The notes under the pieces are model-generated. The model worked only from the letters and a program-made list of their open reading frames with translations, had not been told where the DNA came from and made no database searches. From Schwartzia sp. (in: firmicutes) (lineage in GTDB: Bacteria; Bacillota; Negativicutes; Selenomonadales; Selenomonadaceae): a DNA stretch of 42,692 bases. The DNA is taken from the NCBI GenBank assembly GCA_017444395.1, contig JAFSWT010000114.1:1-42692 (forward strand), in the 5' to 3' direction. The stretch's first letter is position 1. Each line of letters begins with the position of its first letter. Positions 6,250 through 17,666 of this stretch are shown in pieces. Made by a program: the position numbers and the translations under genes.

Positions 6250-7929
6250 TCAGCGCAGCTCAATGATCTGTGCCATCGGTGTCAGCCGGACCTCGAAGGT
6301 GCGGGGCCACGGGCAATAGACATCGGCGGTGAGGTTTTGGACGGCGAGTGTCGCGTGGCCTTCGGCGAGGGGCAGGGATACCGGCGTCCGGAAGGCGCGG
6401 GAGGCGGCGAAGGTCGCCAGCCGCCGGTCCATCGCCTGTTGGATGGTGGCATTGACCCAGCGGGCGTTGTGGTCAAGGTCGAGGTCGTTGACATCGAGAT
6501 AGCCGGCTTTGCGGAGCATGGCGTTTTCCAGGTCGATGATGTCCTTCAGGTAGTAATAGTCTTCCAGAAAGCGGCCGTCGAGGAAGGCCAGGTTCGCGGC
6601 ATGCGCCGCCAAGGCCTCGTCCCGGGACGAGGCCCGGTGCCGGGCGGTTTCGATGAGGACCGCCTGCGCCGCTGCCGTGCCGATGGCGTTGCTGGCGGTG
6701 TTCCAGCCGGCGTAGGCGGCGAGCCCGTGCAGAGGGATATGCTGCCGCAGAAGCTGGGGCAAAATCGTCTGCTCCGCCAGGAAATCCTCAGCCAGATCGA
6801 CGAGGGCGACACGGCGGCCCGCCGCCAGCAACGTCTGAACGCGGCGGGCCGCGTCCTGGCGGTGGCCTAAGGTATCGGTGCCGTGGGCGGCAATGAAGAG
6901 GGTGATGTCCGCCTCGTCGGAAGAAATGGTGAGTTCTCCCAACAGGGCGGCTTTTTCTTCGGCGGTGGTCTGCATGGAGGCGGCCATATAGGGAAATACC
7001 TTGGCGGAAACGGAGGAATCGCTGTATTCGATGGTAAAGCGTGGGACATAGCCGCTGCGTTCCGCTTCCACCGCCGCCAGGAGTGAAAGGGCAATCTCGT
7101 CGGCACCGTGGGTGAAGAAGGCCCGCGGGGCGGGGAGTTGACGCCGCGCGATCGACTCCTGGAGGCGGCGCCGTTCCCGGTTGTTGATGCCGTAAACTTC
7201 ACCGTCGTCCTGCCCGATGACGAGCCGCGTGAGGACGCCTTGCTCCGCCAGGTCGAGAAGCGCCTCGTTGAGCCGGGCGTTGTCAGTGAAGAGGTCGGTA
7301 TAGTGACGGAAGCTCTTGGATGGAATCCGCATTTCCAGCGCCCGGAGCCGGGCCAGCCCCTCCGGGTCCCGGCCTTCAAGGTCAAGCCGGTCCGCCAGCC
7401 GCGACCATTCCATGAGATATTTGCGCTCGTCAGCGCCGTCGATGCTGTCCGGCGGCGCCAGGCGGGGGAGGATATTGAAGGCGTAAAGCGGCGTCTGGGG
7501 ATAGGCGGCGTGAAGCCCGGCCAGGAAACGGATGACCTCGGCGGCGTCATCGGCGGTCTTTTTCGCTTCTCGGGACGCTAAAAGGCCGCCGTGCAGAAGC
7601 TGGTCGACGGAGAGAATCGCGTAGTCGCAGCCGGCGAGGTTCTCCCGCACCCAGACATGCAGGGCGGCGGTGTCGCCGGGTTTCGAGTAGTAGTCCAGGA
7701 TGTCCTCGGGGGGCGTGATGACCTCTACGCCGGCGATGCGGCCGGCCCGGACGACGAAATCCAGGCAGGGGGGGCGGCTGTCCAGCGGCGCCAGCAGGAC
7801 GCGGCTTCGCACCGGCGGCGTCGCGGCCACCGGCGTTCCCTCGTAGCGCGGGTGCCATATAAAATGAAAGGCTACCATGAGAACGAGTGCCAGCAAAAGC
7901 GGCAGCCATCGCTGCCGGAACGTATTCAT
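6250..7929 (-). CDS. DUF4127 family protein with N-terminal membrane anchor
   Basis: 559 residues from the ATG at 7929, chosen because AAAGGAGG precedes it; the frame continues open to 7983. Residues 5-24 are a hydrophobic anchor or uncleaved signal (WLPLLLALVLMVAFHFIW), so the rest is probably extracytoplasmic. The body matches the DUF4127 pattern: LLAPLDSRPPCLDF, a conserved VDQLLHGGLLASR block, YAFNILPR, GQDDGEVYGINNRER, HGADEIALSLL and AYAGWNTASNAIGTA. Members are often described as uncharacterised exported proteins; I know no established activity. It follows the terminator of the permease-kinase gene, so it is probably transcribed separately. Confidence 0.85.
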   Translation of the reverse strand: MNTFRQRWLPLLLALVLMVAFHFIWHPRYEGTPVAATPPVRSRVLLAPLDSRPPCLDFVVRAGRIAGVEVITPPEDILDYYSKPGDTAALHVWVRENLAGCDYAILSVDQLLHGGLLASREAKKTADDAAEVIRFLAGLHAAYPQTPLYAFNILPRLAPPDSIDGADERKYLMEWSRLADRLDLEGRDPEGLARLRALEMRIPSKSFRHYTDLFTDNARLNEALLDLAEQGVLTRLVIGQDDGEVYGINNRERRRLQESIARRQLPAPRAFFTHGADEIALSLLAAVEAERSGYVPRFTIEYSDSSVSAKVFPYMAASMQTTAEEKAALLGELTISSDEADITLFIAAHGTDTLGHRQDAARRVQTLLAAGRRVALVDLAEDFLAEQTILPQLLRQHIPLHGLAAYAGWNTASNAIGTAAAQAVLIETARHRASSRDEALAAHAANLAFLDGRFLEDYYYLKDIIDLENAMLRKAGYLDVNDLDLDHNARWVNATIQQAMDRRLATFAASRAFRTPVSLPLAEGHATLAVQNLTADVYCPWPRTFEVRLTPMAQIIELR

Positions 7930-7985
7930 TGAGGCTGCCTCCTTTCGCGGATACGGTTTCTTTTGTTCCCGGCTCCTCATCAAGA

Positions 7986-8033: not shown

Positions 8034-11000
8034 TTACGCTTTCCGGGCGCTGGCCTGCAGGACCTCGGTCAGCGTCGCTATCATCTTCGATACGTCGAGG
8101 GGCTTGGCGATATGAGCGTTCATGCCCGCGTCCTTCGCGTTCTGCACGTCCTCGCTGAAAGCGTTGGCGGTCATGGCGATGATGGGGATGCAGGAAAGGC
8201 CCGGATCGGAGAGCCGCCGAATCGCTTTTGTCGCCTCGTAGCCATTCATGACCGGCATCTGAATATCCATGAGCACTGCCGCGTAATCGCCGGGGTGGGC
8301 GGCCCGGACTTTGTCCAGCGCGTCCTGCCCGTTCACGGCGGTCTCAATCTCGAAACCGGCCCCCATGAGCAGCATGGCGGCAATCTCCCGGTTCACGTCG
8401 AGATCGTCCACCAGCAGCAGCTTTATCTGGCTGAAATCAATCTCGGCCGGGGTTGCGGTTGCGGCCGCTTCAGCCTCGGTTTCGTCTGCGGTATCGAGGA
8501 CGAAAGCAACTTGGATGATGAACTCCGTGCCCTTACCGGGCGCGGTCTCGACGTCGATGCTGCCGTTCATGAGGTCGATGATGCTCTTGGTGATGGACAT
8601 GCCGAGGCCGGTGCCCTGGATACCGCTGACGGTGGCGGTCTTTTCCCGGGTAAAGGGCTCGAAGACCGTCTGGGCGAACTCCGGTGTCATGCCGATGCCG
8701 CTGTCCTTTACCCGGAGCTCATAGACGCCGCGGGCAGGGTCAAAGGAGGGCATCTGGATCAGCGAGACGGTGACCCGGCCGCCCTTCGGCGTAAACTTAT
8801 AGGCGTTGCTGATGAGGTTCAGCAGCACCCGGTCAAGGCGGTTCTTGTCGCAAAGCACGCGGCTGTTTTCCACCCGGGAGGTATCGACGGCGAAGCGGAT
8901 GTCTTTTTCCTTCATCTGCGTCGCGAACATATCCTGGACCTCCGCCAGCACGTTTTTCAGATCGGTGCGGCGTTCCTCCAGTTCCATGCGGCCGCTTTCA
9001 ATGCGGCTCATTTCGAGGATGTCGTTGATGAGTGCCATGAGATGCTGGCTGGCGGCGTCAATCTTCGTCAGGAAACCGCGCATTTCATCCGGTGTCGTTC
9101 CCTGCCGCTGGGCCAGCGTCGTATAGCCGATGATAGCGTTCATCGGCGTGCGGATATCGTGGGACATATTGGAAAGGAAGACCGTCTTGGCGCGGCTCCC
9201 TTCCTCGGCTTCGATGCGGGCCTGCTCCGCCTCGAATTTTTCCTGTTCGGCCCGGAGTTTTTCCTGCTCGGTGTGGATACGCTCTTCCTCCACCAGGAGT
9301 TTCTCTTCCTCCGCCCGGCGCTTTTCTTCCTCCATCTTCTTTTCCCGGTTGCTGATGACGGAGTAAATGCTGAACATGATGTAGAGCGTCGCCAGGATCA
9401 GCGTCATCCGGGCCAGGCTGTTCCGGAAGAGCCGGGTGCGGACGGAAGCCATCTGCGCCTGCAGGAAGGCGTCTTCCTGCTCCTGGCGATCCGGGCCTCG
9501 GAGAACGCCGCTGTCAACCATCTCTTCGTTGTAGAATTCGCTGATGGTCTTCGTGGCCTGCTGGATGTTATCATGATTTGACTGTTGCAGCCAGGCGAAG
9601 GAGACGAAGAAAATCAAAAACAGCAGCAGCAGCCAGGCGATGGTGGATTTGCCGAGGCGGTTCGCCGCGTCGTGCTCGAAGACCATGCGGAAGAACACGA
9701 ATCCCAGCACACTCCAGGCAGTCAGGATCAGATAGGTTTCCGTCGCCAGAGAGCCAATTCCCCAGAGATTCGGCATCATGAGGACAAAGCACAGGACGAG
9801 GGACACGGCCGTCCCGATACCGCCGAACCAACGCATTTTCCGGTTACCCTCGGAACGGGCCAGGGCATAGGCGCAGGCCGATGTATAGGCGTAGGCGAGC
9901 GTCGCTCCCACCGTGTTCACATCCACAATCCAGCCGAGAGCCGCCCGGCCGATGAAGGGCAGGGGGAGCGAAATAGCCAGCATGATGAGGATGGCAACGG
10001 CGGGTACGCCGTCCCGGTTCAAAGTTCCGGGGGAGCGGCGCATCAGCCATCCGGGCAGCAGGTCGTCGCCGGCCAACGCGTAAAGGACGCGGCTGGTGGC
10101 GAAGTATAGGCCGATGAGGCTGGTCGTTAGCGCCGCCAGGATTGTCAGCGCCAGGATGAAAAGACCTGCCGGGCCGAGAATCTCCTGAACGGCATAGAAG
10201 ACCGGCAGCGCCATGACGCCGTCCATCCCGCCGGTTGCCCTGAGATACTGCGTCCAGTTGGAAAAGCCGTCGGGACGCGCCAGAAGAGCGACATAGGAGA
10301 GAAGCAGATAGATGAAGCCGCTGGCGATGACGGCCGCCACCATGACGGGAAATGATTTCCTGACCGGAAATGTCACTTCCCCGGCGGCGTGGGAAACGAC
10401 CTCAAAGCCGGCAAAGGCCCAGGGCGCCATGGCCATGATGCGCAGCACCTGAGCGTAGGGAGACGAACCTTCGGCAAAGGCCGGTGAGAAATCCGTGACG
10501 GTGCTGCCGGCCACGACGCCGCAGAAAAGGACCGCCACGCCCACACAGAGAATGACCGCCATCACGGTCAGAAGACCGAAGCTGAAGCGCCGCGCCCGGA
10601 TGGCGAGCAGGGCGAAGACCGCCAGTGCCGCGATTTCCAGAAAGACCTCGCCGCCGTAAATGTCGTAATCCCATAGCCGGTAATGGAAGCCGAACTGGAA
10701 AGCCCGCCCCAGGAAAACCCGGCCCAAAAGAGCCACGTTTGCCGCGTTGGCCCAGAGAATGGCGGCATAGGTCAGCCAGAAGAACCAGGTGGCGATGAAG
10801 GCATGGTCGTAGCCGAAGACATTCTTCGCGTAGGTAAACGTGCCGCCGGTATCCGGGTAGCGCTGGATCATGTAGTGGTAGTTGCGGGCAATCACCAGCA
10901 TCAGCAAGGTCCCCAGCACAATGCCCAGCGTAGTGCCCCAGGGGCCGGCCACCGGCAGGAACGTCGAGCCCGGCATGACGAAAGCGCCCCAGCCCACAGC

Positions 11001-11144
11001 GCAGCCCAGCGACAAAGCCCAGGCTTTCAGCGCCGAGAGATGACGGGGAAGCCGGTCCGCCGCGTTCCCGTTTTCCGCGGGCGTTTCGCCGGGGACGGCG
11101 GGTTGCGCGAAACAGCGGCGGAACAAACAGTCAAAGAGACGCAT
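8034..11144 (-). CDS. Amino-acid permease (APC) fused to hybrid sensor histidine kinase
   Basis: A single 1036-residue frame joins a transporter to a two-component sensor. Residues about 36-490 are an APC-superfamily permease with about 12 membrane segments (GWGAFVMPGSTFLPVAGPWG, YPDTGGTFTYAKNVFG, APWAFAGFEVVSHAAGE). Two further helices (504-520, 580-597) flank a loop of about 60 residues. A Glu/Lys/Arg-rich coiled coil (600-650) leads to a HisKA domain (FLSNMSHDIRTPMNA, His662), an HATPase domain (N-box NLISNAYKF, G-boxes DSGIGM and GTGLGM) and a receiver (LLVDD, phospho-acceptor Asp960 in LMDIQMPVMNG). The permease part probably acts as the sensor, or as both carrier and sensor, for an amino acid. 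No response regulator with an output domain is adjacent. GAGGGG precedes the ATG. Confidence 0.93.
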   Translation of the reverse strand: MRLFDCLFRRCFAQPAVPGETPAENGNAADRLPRHLSALKAWALSLGCAVGWGAFVMPGSTFLPVAGPWGTTLGIVLGTLLMLVIARNYHYMIQRYPDTGGTFTYAKNVFGYDHAFIATWFFWLTYAAILWANAANVALLGRVFLGRAFQFGFHYRLWDYDIYGGEVFLEIAALAVFALLAIRARRFSFGLLTVMAVILCVGVAVLFCGVVAGSTVTDFSPAFAEGSSPYAQVLRIMAMAPWAFAGFEVVSHAAGEVTFPVRKSFPVMVAAVIASGFIYLLLSYVALLARPDGFSNWTQYLRATGGMDGVMALPVFYAVQEILGPAGLFILALTILAALTTSLIGLYFATSRVLYALAGDDLLPGWLMRRSPGTLNRDGVPAVAILIMLAISLPLPFIGRAALGWIVDVNTVGATLAYAYTSACAYALARSEGNRKMRWFGGIGTAVSLVLCFVLMMPNLWGIGSLATETYLILTAWSVLGFVFFRMVFEHDAANRLGKSTIAWLLLLFLIFFVSFAWLQQSNHDNIQQATKTISEFYNEEMVDSGVLRGPDRQEQEDAFLQAQMASVRTRLFRNSLARMTLILATLYIMFSIYSVISNREKKMEEEKRRAEEEKLLVEEERIHTEQEKLRAEQEKFEAEQARIEAEEGSRAKTVFLSNMSHDIRTPMNAIIGYTTLAQRQGTTPDEMRGFLTKIDAASQHLMALINDILEMSRIESGRMELEERRTDLKNVLAEVQDMFATQMKEKDIRFAVDTSRVENSRVLCDKNRLDRVLLNLISNAYKFTPKGGRVTVSLIQMPSFDPARGVYELRVKDSGIGMTPEFAQTVFEPFTREKTATVSGIQGTGLGMSITKSIIDLMNGSIDVETAPGKGTEFIIQVAFVLDTADETEAEAAATATPAEIDFSQIKLLLVDDLDVNREIAAMLLMGAGFEIETAVNGQDALDKVRAAHPGDYAAVLMDIQMPVMNGYEATKAIRRLSDPGLSCIPIIAMTANAFSEDVQNAKDAGMNAHIAKPLDVSKMIATLTEVLQASARKA

Positions 11145-13525: not shown

Positions 13526-15229
13526 TCAGTATTTGTATTTGCTGAGCTCGTTCTGCATGTTCTGGGCCAGCTTGGCCAGTGCGTCGCTGGCCGAGGCGAT
13601 TTCCTGGGCCGATGCCGACTGCTGTTCGGCGGCGGCGGAAACGGACTGCATCTCGTCGGCGACTTTCTTGGCGCCGCTGTCAATCTCGTTCATTTCCTGG
13701 GTGATGCCCTCCGTCTCATGGGCTACGCCGGCAACGGAGGCCGCCATGGTCTGCACCTTGCCCGAGACCTGGTCGACCAGGCCCTTGATGCGGTCAAAGG
13801 TGCTCCGCAGGCCGTCAACGGACTGGGCGCCCTCGACGACAGCGGCACGGCCGTCCTGCATGGAGGATACGGCGCTGTGGGTATCGGTCTGGATGGCCCC
13901 GATGAGGCTGGAAATCTGCTCGGCAGCCTCGCGGGACTGCTCGGCCAGCTTCCGGACTTCCTCGGCGACGACCGCGAAGCCGCGGCCATGCTCACCGGCC
14001 CGGGCGGCCTCGATGGCGGCGTTCAGCGCCAGCAGGTTCGTCTGCCCGGCGATGCCGGAAATGGTGTCGATGATGGTGCCGATTTCCTTGGAGCGCTCGC
14101 CCAGCTTATCGACGAGTTCCGCCGTCGCCTGGACGGTCTGCTCCACGTTCTTGATCTGGGTGACGGAGGAATCGACCTCGCCGCCGCCATTGGCCGCCTC
14201 GGACGAAGCGTTGGCGGAGTTATTGGCGGCCTGCTCGGCCTGGTTCTTCATCTCGTCGATAGAGGTCGCGATCAGCGAGATCTTCTCACTGCCGTTGTCA
14301 ACCGAAGCCTGCTGCCGGTCCACGACAGCGGCGGCGGCGGTTACGGACTCGGCGACCTGGGTTGCGGCCTTCGCCGTCTCCAGGGAGTTCGCCGTCAGCT
14401 CCTCCGAGGAAGCCGCGATTTGCTCGCTGTCCTCGGCAATCAACCGCATGAATTTATTGACGGAAGCGCGCATATCGAAAAGGGCCCGCTCGGCGTCGCC
14501 AAACTCGTCGCCCCGGGTGCTGCGCTCGCCGGTCAGGCGGAAATCGCCGTTCTTCAGCGTGTTGCAGCCATCAATCATGGCATTGAGCGGCGACTGGATG
14601 GCCCGGATCAGCATGACGGAGAGCAGGATCAAAATGACGATGGCGATGACGGTAGCCGCGACCATCGACATGATGGCGGCCTCATTGTCCTTATCGTTCT
14701 GGCTGTTGATTTCGGCGGCGTTCTTCTCCGCCATTTCCAGGAGCTTGTGGAGCTTGTCCCGCAGGTCTGCCGTCTCCTTCTTGGCGGAGGCGTTGTACTC
14801 GGCGAGGGCCCCTTGGGAATTGCCGGACTCGGCGATGGCCATGGTCTTTACCATGGAATCGCGGAAACGTACCCAGTTCGCCTTGGTTTCGGTAGCCAGC
14901 GCCTGCTCGGCCGGTACCTTGGCCAGGAGTTTCTCGAGCTCTGCCCATACCTTCTCGTAGTTCGCGATGGATTTCTGCTGCCCCTTCTTGACTTCCTGCG
15001 CCCGTGGCGGATCGGCGATTGCCTGATACGTCCGCACCTGGATGACGCGCATGTAATCGACTTCTTCGCCGATCATGTTGACGGTCTGCAGCTTCTCCTT
15101 GTACATGACTTCCATGTCGGTCCCGGCCTTGGTGAGGCTCGACCATCCCCGCAGACCGATGACCGCCATGCCGATGAAGGCAACGACGACCAGCATCAGG
15201 ATCTTGACAGGAACCTTCAAATTGTTCAT
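13526..15229 (-). CDS. Methyl-accepting chemotaxis protein
   Basis: 567 residues. An N-terminal membrane helix (about 9-29), an extracytoplasmic region of about 165 residues with four-helix-bundle (4HB_MCP) character, a second helix (about 186-210) and a HAMP segment ([17 protein letters not shown]) precede the signalling domain. The hairpin tip, with family sequence [43 protein letters not shown], contacts CheA and CheW. There is no C-terminal NWETF-type CheR-docking pentapeptide (it ends LSKYKY). The ligand cannot be inferred. It has its own promoter and terminator, so it is monocistronic. It implies a motile or chemotactic cell. Confidence 0.95.
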
Positions 15230-15581: not shown

Positions 15582-17666
15582 ATGAATAAGTCGCAGAAGA
15601 TCCTGATCGTGGACGATGACGAGACCAGCCGCACGCTGTTGCACGGCATCCTCCACGACTATACGAATACCTATGAGGTGTCGGACGGGGTCGAGGCGCT
15701 GGCCTTCCTGCATCGCAACCCGGATACGGCACTGGTTCTTCTCGATGTCGTAATGCCGAAGATGGATGGGTTGGAAGTCCTGACCCGGATGCGGCTTTCA
15801 CCGTATCTGACGGATACACCGGTACTGGTGCTGTCGGCGGCGACAGAGCTTGACCTTCATATCCGGGCGTTGAAGCTCGGCGCGACCGAGTTCGCCTCCA
15901 AGCCATACCAGTCGCCGCTGCTCCGCCAGCGCGTCGCCAATCTCCTGCAGATTCCGCGGGGGCAGGTCAAAGTCGATCCGGACAGCTTTGACGAGCAGAT
16001 GTACCGGCAGAGCCAGTCGCTGGATACCGGCATTACCGTTTACGAGATGGGGCGGGACCGGAAACTGCAGACCATCTATTTCAGCGACAATTACGTCCGC
16101 CTTTGCGGCTATAAGGCGTCAGAGTATCAGGCGCTGCTGGAGGAAGGATCGGCGCTTCAGCGCACGATTCATGTCGATGACGCCTTGGCCTTCCAGCAGG
16201 CGATGGAAACCCTTTCCGCTGACCGGCAGCCATTCTGCCAGAATTTCCGCATCCAGCGGAAGGACGGCTCCATCCATCCGGTGACCGTTTACGCCAATTT
16301 CTTCTCCAAATCGCCGGAGCAGACGGTTTTCTGTGTCCTCACCGTGCCGGTGGACGAGAGCTTCAGCGGCATTCCGTCGGCGCGCCTGCCCATTGGTGAA
16401 GGCGCCATCGACAACCTGACGGGCATTCCGAACCGTGGCGCTTTCCTGAAACTTACCCGGCAGATGCTGGACGAGCGGCCGGGGGAGAAGTTCCTGCTGG
16501 GCGTCTTCAACATCGACCGCTTCAAGGTCGTCAACGACCTCTTTGGCACCAAGGTCGGGGATAATATCCTGATTCATCTGGCGGGCCGGCTGCGGGAGGA
16601 CATCCTGGGCCGGGGCACTTTCGGGCGGCTGGGGTCGGATTCCTTCGCCTTCTGCGTGGCCGAGTCCACCTTTGATCTTCATCGCCTGTTGCGACAGGAG
16701 ACCGGCCTCTCCGATGTCTTCGGCCTGCACTATAATCTGACAATCCATAACGGGCTCTACGCGGTGACCGAGCCGAATCTCGACATCGCCCAGATGTGCG
16801 ACCGGGCCAGGATCGCCCTGGCCAGTGTCAAATCCAACTACATTCAGCGTTATGCCTATTACGACGAGAGCATGCGGCAGGAGATGCTGGCGGAGCAGCA
16901 GATCCTGAACGATATGCACCAGGCTTTGGAGCATGGCGATTTCCTGCTCTATATCCAGCCGGTTTACAGCCTGAACTTCAACAAGCCGGTCAGCGGCGAG
17001 GCGTTGGTGCGCTGGAATCACAACGGCAGCCTCATCGCGCCGGGGCAGTTCATCCCGCTGTTTGAGAAGAACCGGTTCATCACGAACCTGGACCATTATA
17101 TGTGGGAACATGCCTGCCGCTATATCGCCAGCCGCAAGGAGCAGAACCTGTCGCCGATTCCCATCTCGGTCAATGTTTCCCGGGCCAATCTCTTCAATCC
17201 GGGGCTGGTGAACGACCTCGAAGCGCTTCTGAAGAAGTACGATGTATCGTCTTCGTTGCTTAGGCTGGAGATCACGGAGACCACCTACATGGACAATCCG
17301 CAGCAGCTCATCGCCGCTACCCGCGCTTTGCAGAAGGCGGGGTTCAAGATCCTCATCGACGATTTCGGCAGCGGGTACTCTTCCCTCAACATGTTGAAGG
17401 ATATCCCGCTGGACATCCTGAAAATTGACATGAAATTCATTGATGATTTGGAGACCTCGTCCCGGGCGGCGGCGATTCTTCTCGGCGTCATCCGTATCGC
17501 CCAGAGCCTTGGCATGACTACGGTGGCCGAGGGTGTGGAAACGAAATTCCAGCTAGATTTCCTGCGGACGGCCGGCTGCGACAACATTCAGGGGTACTTC
17601 TACTCCCCGCCGTTGCCTGTCGCTGAGTTCACCAAACTCCTGAAAAACCCGCCCATGGCGCCTTGA
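15582..17666 (+). CDS. Response regulator with PAS, degenerate GGDEF and EAL domains
   Basis: 694 residues. A receiver domain (1-125; acidic pocket DDD 11-13, phospho-acceptor Asp55, Lys107) is followed by a PAS-like domain (about 140-255; YFSDNYVRLCGY, IQRKDGSIHPV), a GGDEF domain (275-435) and an EAL domain (440-690). The GGDEF signature is GSDSF (351-355), so cyclase activity is unlikely, though it may bind GTP. The EAL domain has GEALVRW (473-475), the N of NVSRANL, E of LEITETTY, DD of LIDDFGSGYSSL, K of LKIDMKFI and E of AEGVET, so it should be an active c-di-GMP phosphodiesterase. GAGGTG precedes the ATG. No partner kinase is adjacent; the permease-kinase at 8034-11144 is one candidate. 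Confidence 0.93.
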   Translation: MNKSQKILIVDDDETSRTLLHGILHDYTNTYEVSDGVEALAFLHRNPDTALVLLDVVMPKMDGLEVLTRMRLSPYLTDTPVLVLSAATELDLHIRALKLGATEFASKPYQSPLLRQRVANLLQIPRGQVKVDPDSFDEQMYRQSQSLDTGITVYEMGRDRKLQTIYFSDNYVRLCGYKASEYQALLEEGSALQRTIHVDDALAFQQAMETLSADRQPFCQNFRIQRKDGSIHPVTVYANFFSKSPEQTVFCVLTVPVDESFSGIPSARLPIGEGAIDNLTGIPNRGAFLKLTRQMLDERPGEKFLLGVFNIDRFKVVNDLFGTKVGDNILIHLAGRLREDILGRGTFGRLGSDSFAFCVAESTFDLHRLLRQETGLSDVFGLHYNLTIHNGLYAVTEPNLDIAQMCDRARIALASVKSNYIQRYAYYDESMRQEMLAEQQILNDMHQALEHGDFLLYIQPVYSLNFNKPVSGEALVRWNHNGSLIAPGQFIPLFEKNRFITNLDHYMWEHACRYIASRKEQNLSPIPISVNVSRANLFNPGLVNDLEALLKKYDVSSSLLRLEITETTYMDNPQQLIAATRALQKAGFKILIDDFGSGYSSLNMLKDIPLDILKIDMKFIDDLETSSRAAAILLGVIRIAQSLGMTTVAEGVETKFQLDFLRTAGCDNIQGYFYSPPLPVAEFTKLLKNPPMAP

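Follow-up and report, generated by a model that had tools for sequence, protein, structure and literature searches.

A hybrid histidine kinase with a fused APC-family permease as its probable input module in Schwartzia and related anaerobic bacteria

The gene between positions 8034 and 11144 of the window, the complete 42,692-nucleotide contig JAFSWT010000114.1 of a Schwartzia sp. genome [assembly GCA_017444395.1], probably encodes a membrane-bound hybrid sensor kinase that takes its input from a repurposed amino-acid permease of the APC family. The domain architecture, catalytic residues, single origin, exchange of output domains, near-constant linker register and purifying selection described below were all computed. 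The fusion family is real and seemingly undescribed. No description of an APC-type permease-kinase fusion was found in the open-access literature, though automatic annotation of such proteins surely exists. The chances are roughly even that the family forms an extensive, so far undescribed class of prokaryotic transceptors. On that view, an APC permease would have arisen once as a pure input module, with transport lost or changed, gained a two-helix linker and spread in anaerobic gut bacteria of several phyla. Hybrid kinases, diguanylate cyclases and a chemosensory-like system of degenerate kinases and CheB would then have taken it up as their input, with linker length changing mostly by whole heptads.

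The interval has no coding frame on the plus strand. The minus strand carries a frame that runs uninterrupted from an ATG at 11144 to a stop at 8034 and predicts a protein of 1036 aa. The initial annotation had described a single 1036-residue frame and the order permease, two helices, coiled coil, HisKA, HATPase and receiver; both agree with the frame and with Pfam, hydropathy and models. As a reading of one window, it overlooked the strand, the size and single origin of the family, the other outputs and the heptad-exact linker. The features are as follows.

8034..11144, minus strand: whole gene, 1036 aa, with APC permease, two-helix linker, coiled coil, HisKA, HATPase_c and receiver (ORF, Pfam and model).
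9660..11048, minus strand: APC permease domain, residues 33-495, 12-helix LeuT-type fold (Pfam, residues 36-461; AdiC fold match, model residues 33-501).
Within 9660..11048, minus strand: permease motifs GCAVGWGAF (TM1) and PWAFAGFEVVS (TM6).
9588..9644, minus strand: TM13, residues 501-519 (hydropathy; start of predicted helix 501-545).
9408..9587, minus strand: helical hairpin, residues 520-579, predicted from the topology to be extracytoplasmic (model helices 501-545 and 551-605; alignments).
9351..9407, minus strand: TM14, residues 580-598, continuous with a cytoplasmic helix (hydropathy; models).
9195..9350, minus strand: signalling helix or coiled coil, residues 599-650 (TM14-to-His distance).
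8991..9188, minus strand: HisKA (DHp), residues 653-718, with phospho-acceptor H662 in SHDIRTP at 9159-9161 (Pfam; alignment).
8508..8849, minus strand: HATPase_c (CA), residues 766-879 (Pfam; alignment).
8070..8417, minus strand: receiver, residues 910-1025, with phospho-acceptor D960 at 8265-8267 (Pfam; alignment).
6250..7983, minus strand: DUF4127 protein, the next gene, 50 bp downstream of the fusion (Pfam PF13552, 2.5e-114).

The domains named in the initial annotation were all found, and all four exceed their own Pfam cut-offs: AA_permease_2 at residues 36-461 (E 1.2e-25, 90.7 bits against a cut-off of 27, with AA_permease matching too), HisKA at 653-718 (E 2e-18), HATPase_c at 766-879 (E 2e-26) and Response_reg at 910-1025 (E 2.4e-21). 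Residues 462-652 contain no further Pfam domain at E<=0.01. Residues 1-606, modelled from 50 relatives (pLDDT 87.9, pTM 0.87), match AdiC with a Z score of 40.4 over 417 residues at 3.1 A, and the transporter fold is therefore complete, as had been proposed. LAT-type, CAT-type and ApcT transporters also match in the structure search, and the best sequence relative in the PDB is GkApcT [5oqt] (E 8e-10). Past the permease, two hydrophobic peaks (501-519 and 580-598) fall within predicted helices 501-545 and 551-605, which pair as a hairpin. In the full-length model the long, charged second helix extends towards the kinase as far as residue 633, but this model is of moderate quality (pLDDT 73.6, pTM 0.54) and its domain placement is unreliable.

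The catalytic residues of the kinase and receiver are complete, including the H, N, G1 and G2 boxes and the receiver acidic residues. H662, N776/N780, D814-G816-G818, G844-G848, D914, D960 and K1014 are invariant in an alignment of 21 relatives. By its domains and signature residues the protein is a hybrid histidine kinase, for which autophosphorylation and phosphorelay are predicted.

The fused permeases have one evolutionary origin. Maximum-likelihood analysis of 61 permease domains placed all 42 fusions and all 19 stand-alone permeases on opposite sides of a branch of length 0.89, supported at 100/100. The stand-alone relatives are about 480-520 aa long and end after TM12, without TM13 and TM14, and the TM13-TM14 hairpin was seen only in fusions. 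The output is HisKA-HATPase-receiver in most fusions, but the same module also precedes GGDEF domains, in a tandem pair in one genome (L072, 2956-5589 and 6530-9160) and in L147 (2192-4408), all confirmed by Pfam, and in L071 (5190-7859), recognised by motif. These GGDEF fusions fall in two spots of the permease tree. In a further clade (L059-L062 and L073), tandem pairs of 810-840 residue proteins combine the permease with degenerate kinase cores (L059, 4504-9406; L060, 6108-12329; L061, 4488-10777), and one of the L059 pair lacks the N- and G-boxes. The pairs in L059-L061 adjoin a gene that encodes a CheB methylesterase domain but no detectable receiver. These loci are possibly a transporter-linked chemosensory system. 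The N-terminal part of the CheB-like gene product resembles a receiver that lacks its phospho-acceptor Asp, and the L060 and L061 pairs have several MCP genes next to them. With one input standing before several outputs, the permease-plus-two-helix module behaves as a sensor module would.

In 72 of the 81 fusions measured, 37 residues separate the end of TM14 from the phospho-acceptor His. This distance is 72 residues in the window protein and its sister, an increase of 35 or five heptads located at about 609-643, and 44 residues in L157, an increase of 7 or one heptad. Three fusions scored 39 or 40 and one scored 36, and on reading these look like shifts of the anchor motif. L070 and L078 carry one extra residue in this linker. 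The pattern is that expected of one continuous coiled coil in which register matters, and the natural +7 and +35 linkers offer ready-made tests of helix-register signalling.

The same fusion is present in the sister genome (G118), with 81% identity across its full length and 78% across residues 1-606. The dN/dS between the two is 0.19 overall, with 0.19 for the permease, 0.30 for the two-helix linker, 0.16 for the kinase and 0.10 for the receiver, and every part is under purifying selection. The permease-plus-linker query matched 113 of 189 Selenomonadaceae genomes. Seven of these matches were weak (near 1e-25), and the one examined, in G041, is a stand-alone permease; subtracting the seven gives about 106 of 189 genomes that carry the fusion. 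A scan of named genomes returned at least 588 relatives. The best 80 are mainly from rumen MAGs and belong to Selenomonadaceae (Schwartzia, Quinella), Lachnospiraceae (Butyrivibrio) and Oscillospiraceae, together with one record each from Coriobacteriales, Atopobiaceae, Treponema and Victivallales, among which there may be binning errors. An ORF was recognised by the motif filter in 73 of these 80, and all 73 are fused or cut off by the end of a contig. Of 398 genomes sampled evenly across the phylum, 4 carry the fusion, indicating that the family is concentrated in certain anaerobes. In a search of plasmid records, none covered 80% of the query, and the matches listed cover the kinase half only.

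The initial annotation had pointed out that relatives encoding permease and kinase as separate genes would tell against a true fusion. No split pair was found among the members of the fused clade examined, including the 73 above, and split relatives were rejected because the short frames in G054, G100 and G110 all stop at contig ends. The source genome is a MAG of 163 contigs that is 79% complete, so an assembly chimera or a lost stop codon could be imagined, but the same fusion in the Selenomonadaceae genomes and in hundreds of other assemblies rules this out and leaves an artefact with a negligible probability.

The initial annotation also proposed a transporter that reports its own substrate, and the permease residues do not establish this. 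In 86 thinned fusions compared with 28 thinned stand-alones, D248 is replaced by E (0.99), P251 by S/T, N344 by V/I/L/M and N181 by C/S/A, while the stand-alones retain the original residues at 93-100%. D248 and P251 lie in the TM6 motif, which changes from GFD-x-IPQ to GFE-x-[IV]-[ST], and N344 lies in TM8. TM6 and TM8 are moving helices of LeuT-fold transporters. Because positions that are near-invariant in stand-alones have been replaced, the fusions may have taken on a different substrate or lost transport, as has been argued for the repurposed Ks-Amt5 (PMC5764959). The TM5 lysine of the proton-coupled, ApcT-type subtype is absent from the fusions, where the position is mostly L/F/C, but the stand-alones also lack it (L/I/M), and its absence was rejected as proof of lost transport. 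A true transceptor, with a permease that still transports its amino acid and a kinase that reports occupancy or flux, as CbrA does for histidine, is nonetheless a possibility of some substance, though the odds are somewhat against it. It is favoured by the complete fold, by the hinge glycines of TM1 and TM6 kept in the fusions (G51, G53 and G246), by the strong purifying selection on the permease relative to the sister, and by stand-alone relatives located beside genes for amino-acid or amino-sulfonate catabolism. CbrA itself both transports histidine and signals (PMC7096432). Against it are the four replacements, at positions where altered or lost transport could show, although these were placed by alignment and not by a measured binding site. 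This reading overlaps with that of a repurposed permease, which leaves transport undecided, and the likelihoods given to the two are not exclusive.

Under the preferred reading of a repurposed permease as input, we infer a ligand class, direction of control, dimerisation and relay route as follows. The central site of the LeuT-type fold would bind a small ligand, which is probably an amino acid or resembles one, and the resulting change of state in the permease would shift TM13 and TM14, both gained with the fusion. TM14 would continue as one helix through the register-preserving coiled coil into the DHp helices and so set kinase activity, a coupling suggested by sequence and monomer models. 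Phosphate would then pass from H662 to D960 of the attached receiver, to an HPt domain elsewhere in the genome and on to a response regulator. Such a relay is possible given that the source genome has an orphan HPt frame of 124 aa (contig C86) and HPt domains at the ends of other kinases. Sensing could alternatively reside in the extracytoplasmic TM13-TM14 hairpin, which is confined to fusions and is similar to the periplasmic two-helix sensors found in many kinases; the permease would then serve as a membrane scaffold or a tethered transporter. However, most invariant alignment columns are in the permease and none are in residues 520-579, which are weakly conserved, and the L059/L060/L065 clade has a far shorter loop, or almost none, whereas the permease is conserved throughout. 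The permease is for these reasons the likelier site of ligand sensing, and a hairpin sensor is judged unlikely. Control could also run in reverse, with the state of the kinase and receiver regulating transport and outward signalling secondary. The C-terminal receiver and the lack of an adjacent response regulator in the window would fit, but the GGDEF outputs of some relatives and a kinase core with all its catalytic residues point to outward signalling and make this very improbable. The repurposed-permease reading has difficulties of its own: in the CbrA precedent the ligand had no significant effect on kinase activity in vitro (PMC7096432), the models are of monomers only with the full-length one moderate, and a rigid register leaves the single extra residue of L070 and L078 unexplained.

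Bacterial transporter-kinase fusions have been described as rare (PMC13022988). CbrA and CrbS/MxtR share with the window protein an N-terminal LeuT-fold secondary transporter followed by HisKA/HATPase_c (PMC13022988, PMC7096432, PMC7918813), CrbS also has a C-terminal receiver, and both kinds of carrier belong to the APC superfamily in the broad sense. However, the SLC5/STAC kinases have an SSS/SLC5 carrier of 13 helices, a cytoplasmic STAC bundle and a PAS domain (PMC7918813, PMC13022988), whereas the fusion has an APC (2.A.3-like) carrier, two membrane helices and a coiled coil, and no PAS. The remark in the initial annotation that CbrA uses a different carrier family is thus correct, with SSS/SLC5 there and AA_permease_2 here. 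At E<=0.01 Pfam detected neither an SSF nor an ammonium-transporter domain in the fusion. It gave no match in the region corresponding to STAC (residues 462-652), where two membrane helices are found, this being a profile search and not a direct STAC comparison, and no PAS match before the DHp, where there is a coiled coil instead. CbrA works with CbrB, while the fusion has no adjacent partner in the window, as the initial annotation had noted. In Ks-Amt5 a HisKA kinase likewise has a recruited, altered transporter as its sensor, and its authors consider it repurposed for sensing (PMC5764959), but it has an Amt/Rh fold, a trimeric core, no reported receiver and no APC domain. The fusion is thus an APC variant of the transporter-kinase kind, outside the CbrA family and distinct from Ks-Amt5. 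Receptors of the 5TMR type also combine a transporter-related membrane input with many outputs (HK, GGDEF, chemotaxis), but their fold is unrelated and akin to ECF S-components (PMC11109136), whereas the kinship of the fusion to true amino-acid permeases is visible in its sequence. The closest relatives found outside the fused clade are stand-alone APC permeases from other Firmicutes families (L176-L180 and L255-L263), which belong to the same permease family at roughly 26-34% identity to the window protein but have an intact D-x-I-P-Q in TM6 and the TM8 Asn. Known transporter-kinases use SLC5 or Amt carriers, and the APC version has hundreds of natural members. Together, the fusions, close stand-alones and swapped outputs make it directly testable how occupancy of a LeuT fold becomes a kinase signal, and comparison of the two sets can reveal which residues change as a transporter becomes a receptor.

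Gene neighbourhoods provide a weak lead that the ligands of the fusions are small amino or amino-sulfonate compounds. The stand-alone clade of L178, L179, L180 and L185 lies beside genes for Xsc, CuyA, class III aminotransferases and alanine dehydrogenase, and in anaerobic Firmicutes its members may import taurine, cysteate or compounds like these. Xsc above cut-off and a class III aminotransferase are beside L178, CuyA above cut-off beside L180, and an aminotransferase and alanine dehydrogenase (above cut-off) beside L179. Alanine dehydrogenase is also beside the stand-alone L186, with an alanine-dehydrogenase-like neighbour in L263, and other stand-alones are next to a glutamate-dehydrogenase-like gene (L255, named by eye) or an aldehyde dehydrogenase. 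Taurine or cysteate as the substrate was set aside, as CuyA was above cut-off in none of the 189 Selenomonadaceae genomes, Xsc in the window's own genome was not, and other stand-alones have other neighbours. Among fusions, L070 has an alanine dehydrogenase nearby. The sub-clade of L070 (4516-8307) and L078 (6585-10386) is directly upstream of a PHO4 (Pit-type) transporter.

In the window, the DUF4127 gene is possibly co-transcribed with the fusion and is followed on the same strand by genes for an NhaC-type antiporter and a weak relative of histidine racemase (98 bits against a cut-off of 300). The sister locus (L187) keeps the DUF4127 and antiporter genes near the fusion. The antiporter and racemase-like genes were too weak to serve as substrate clues. 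A second DUF4127-like protein is encoded two genes upstream of a PAS hybrid kinase in the same genome (L240, 950-2599). A response regulator gene with receiver, PAS, GGDEF and EAL domains (15582-17666, plus strand) adjoins an MCP gene (13526-15229, minus strand); it is 4.4 kb from the fusion on the opposite strand and nothing ties it to the kinase. Elsewhere, 26 of the 90 fusions that have a downstream neighbour are directly followed on their own strand by a rhodanese-domain lipoprotein-like gene (for example L150, 8940-9647, and L067, 2035-2442), which is not in the window and was rejected as a sulfur clue. In L066 (9401-11500) and L068 (3936-5543), a second, PAS-containing hybrid kinase directly follows the fusion and is a possible partner kinase.
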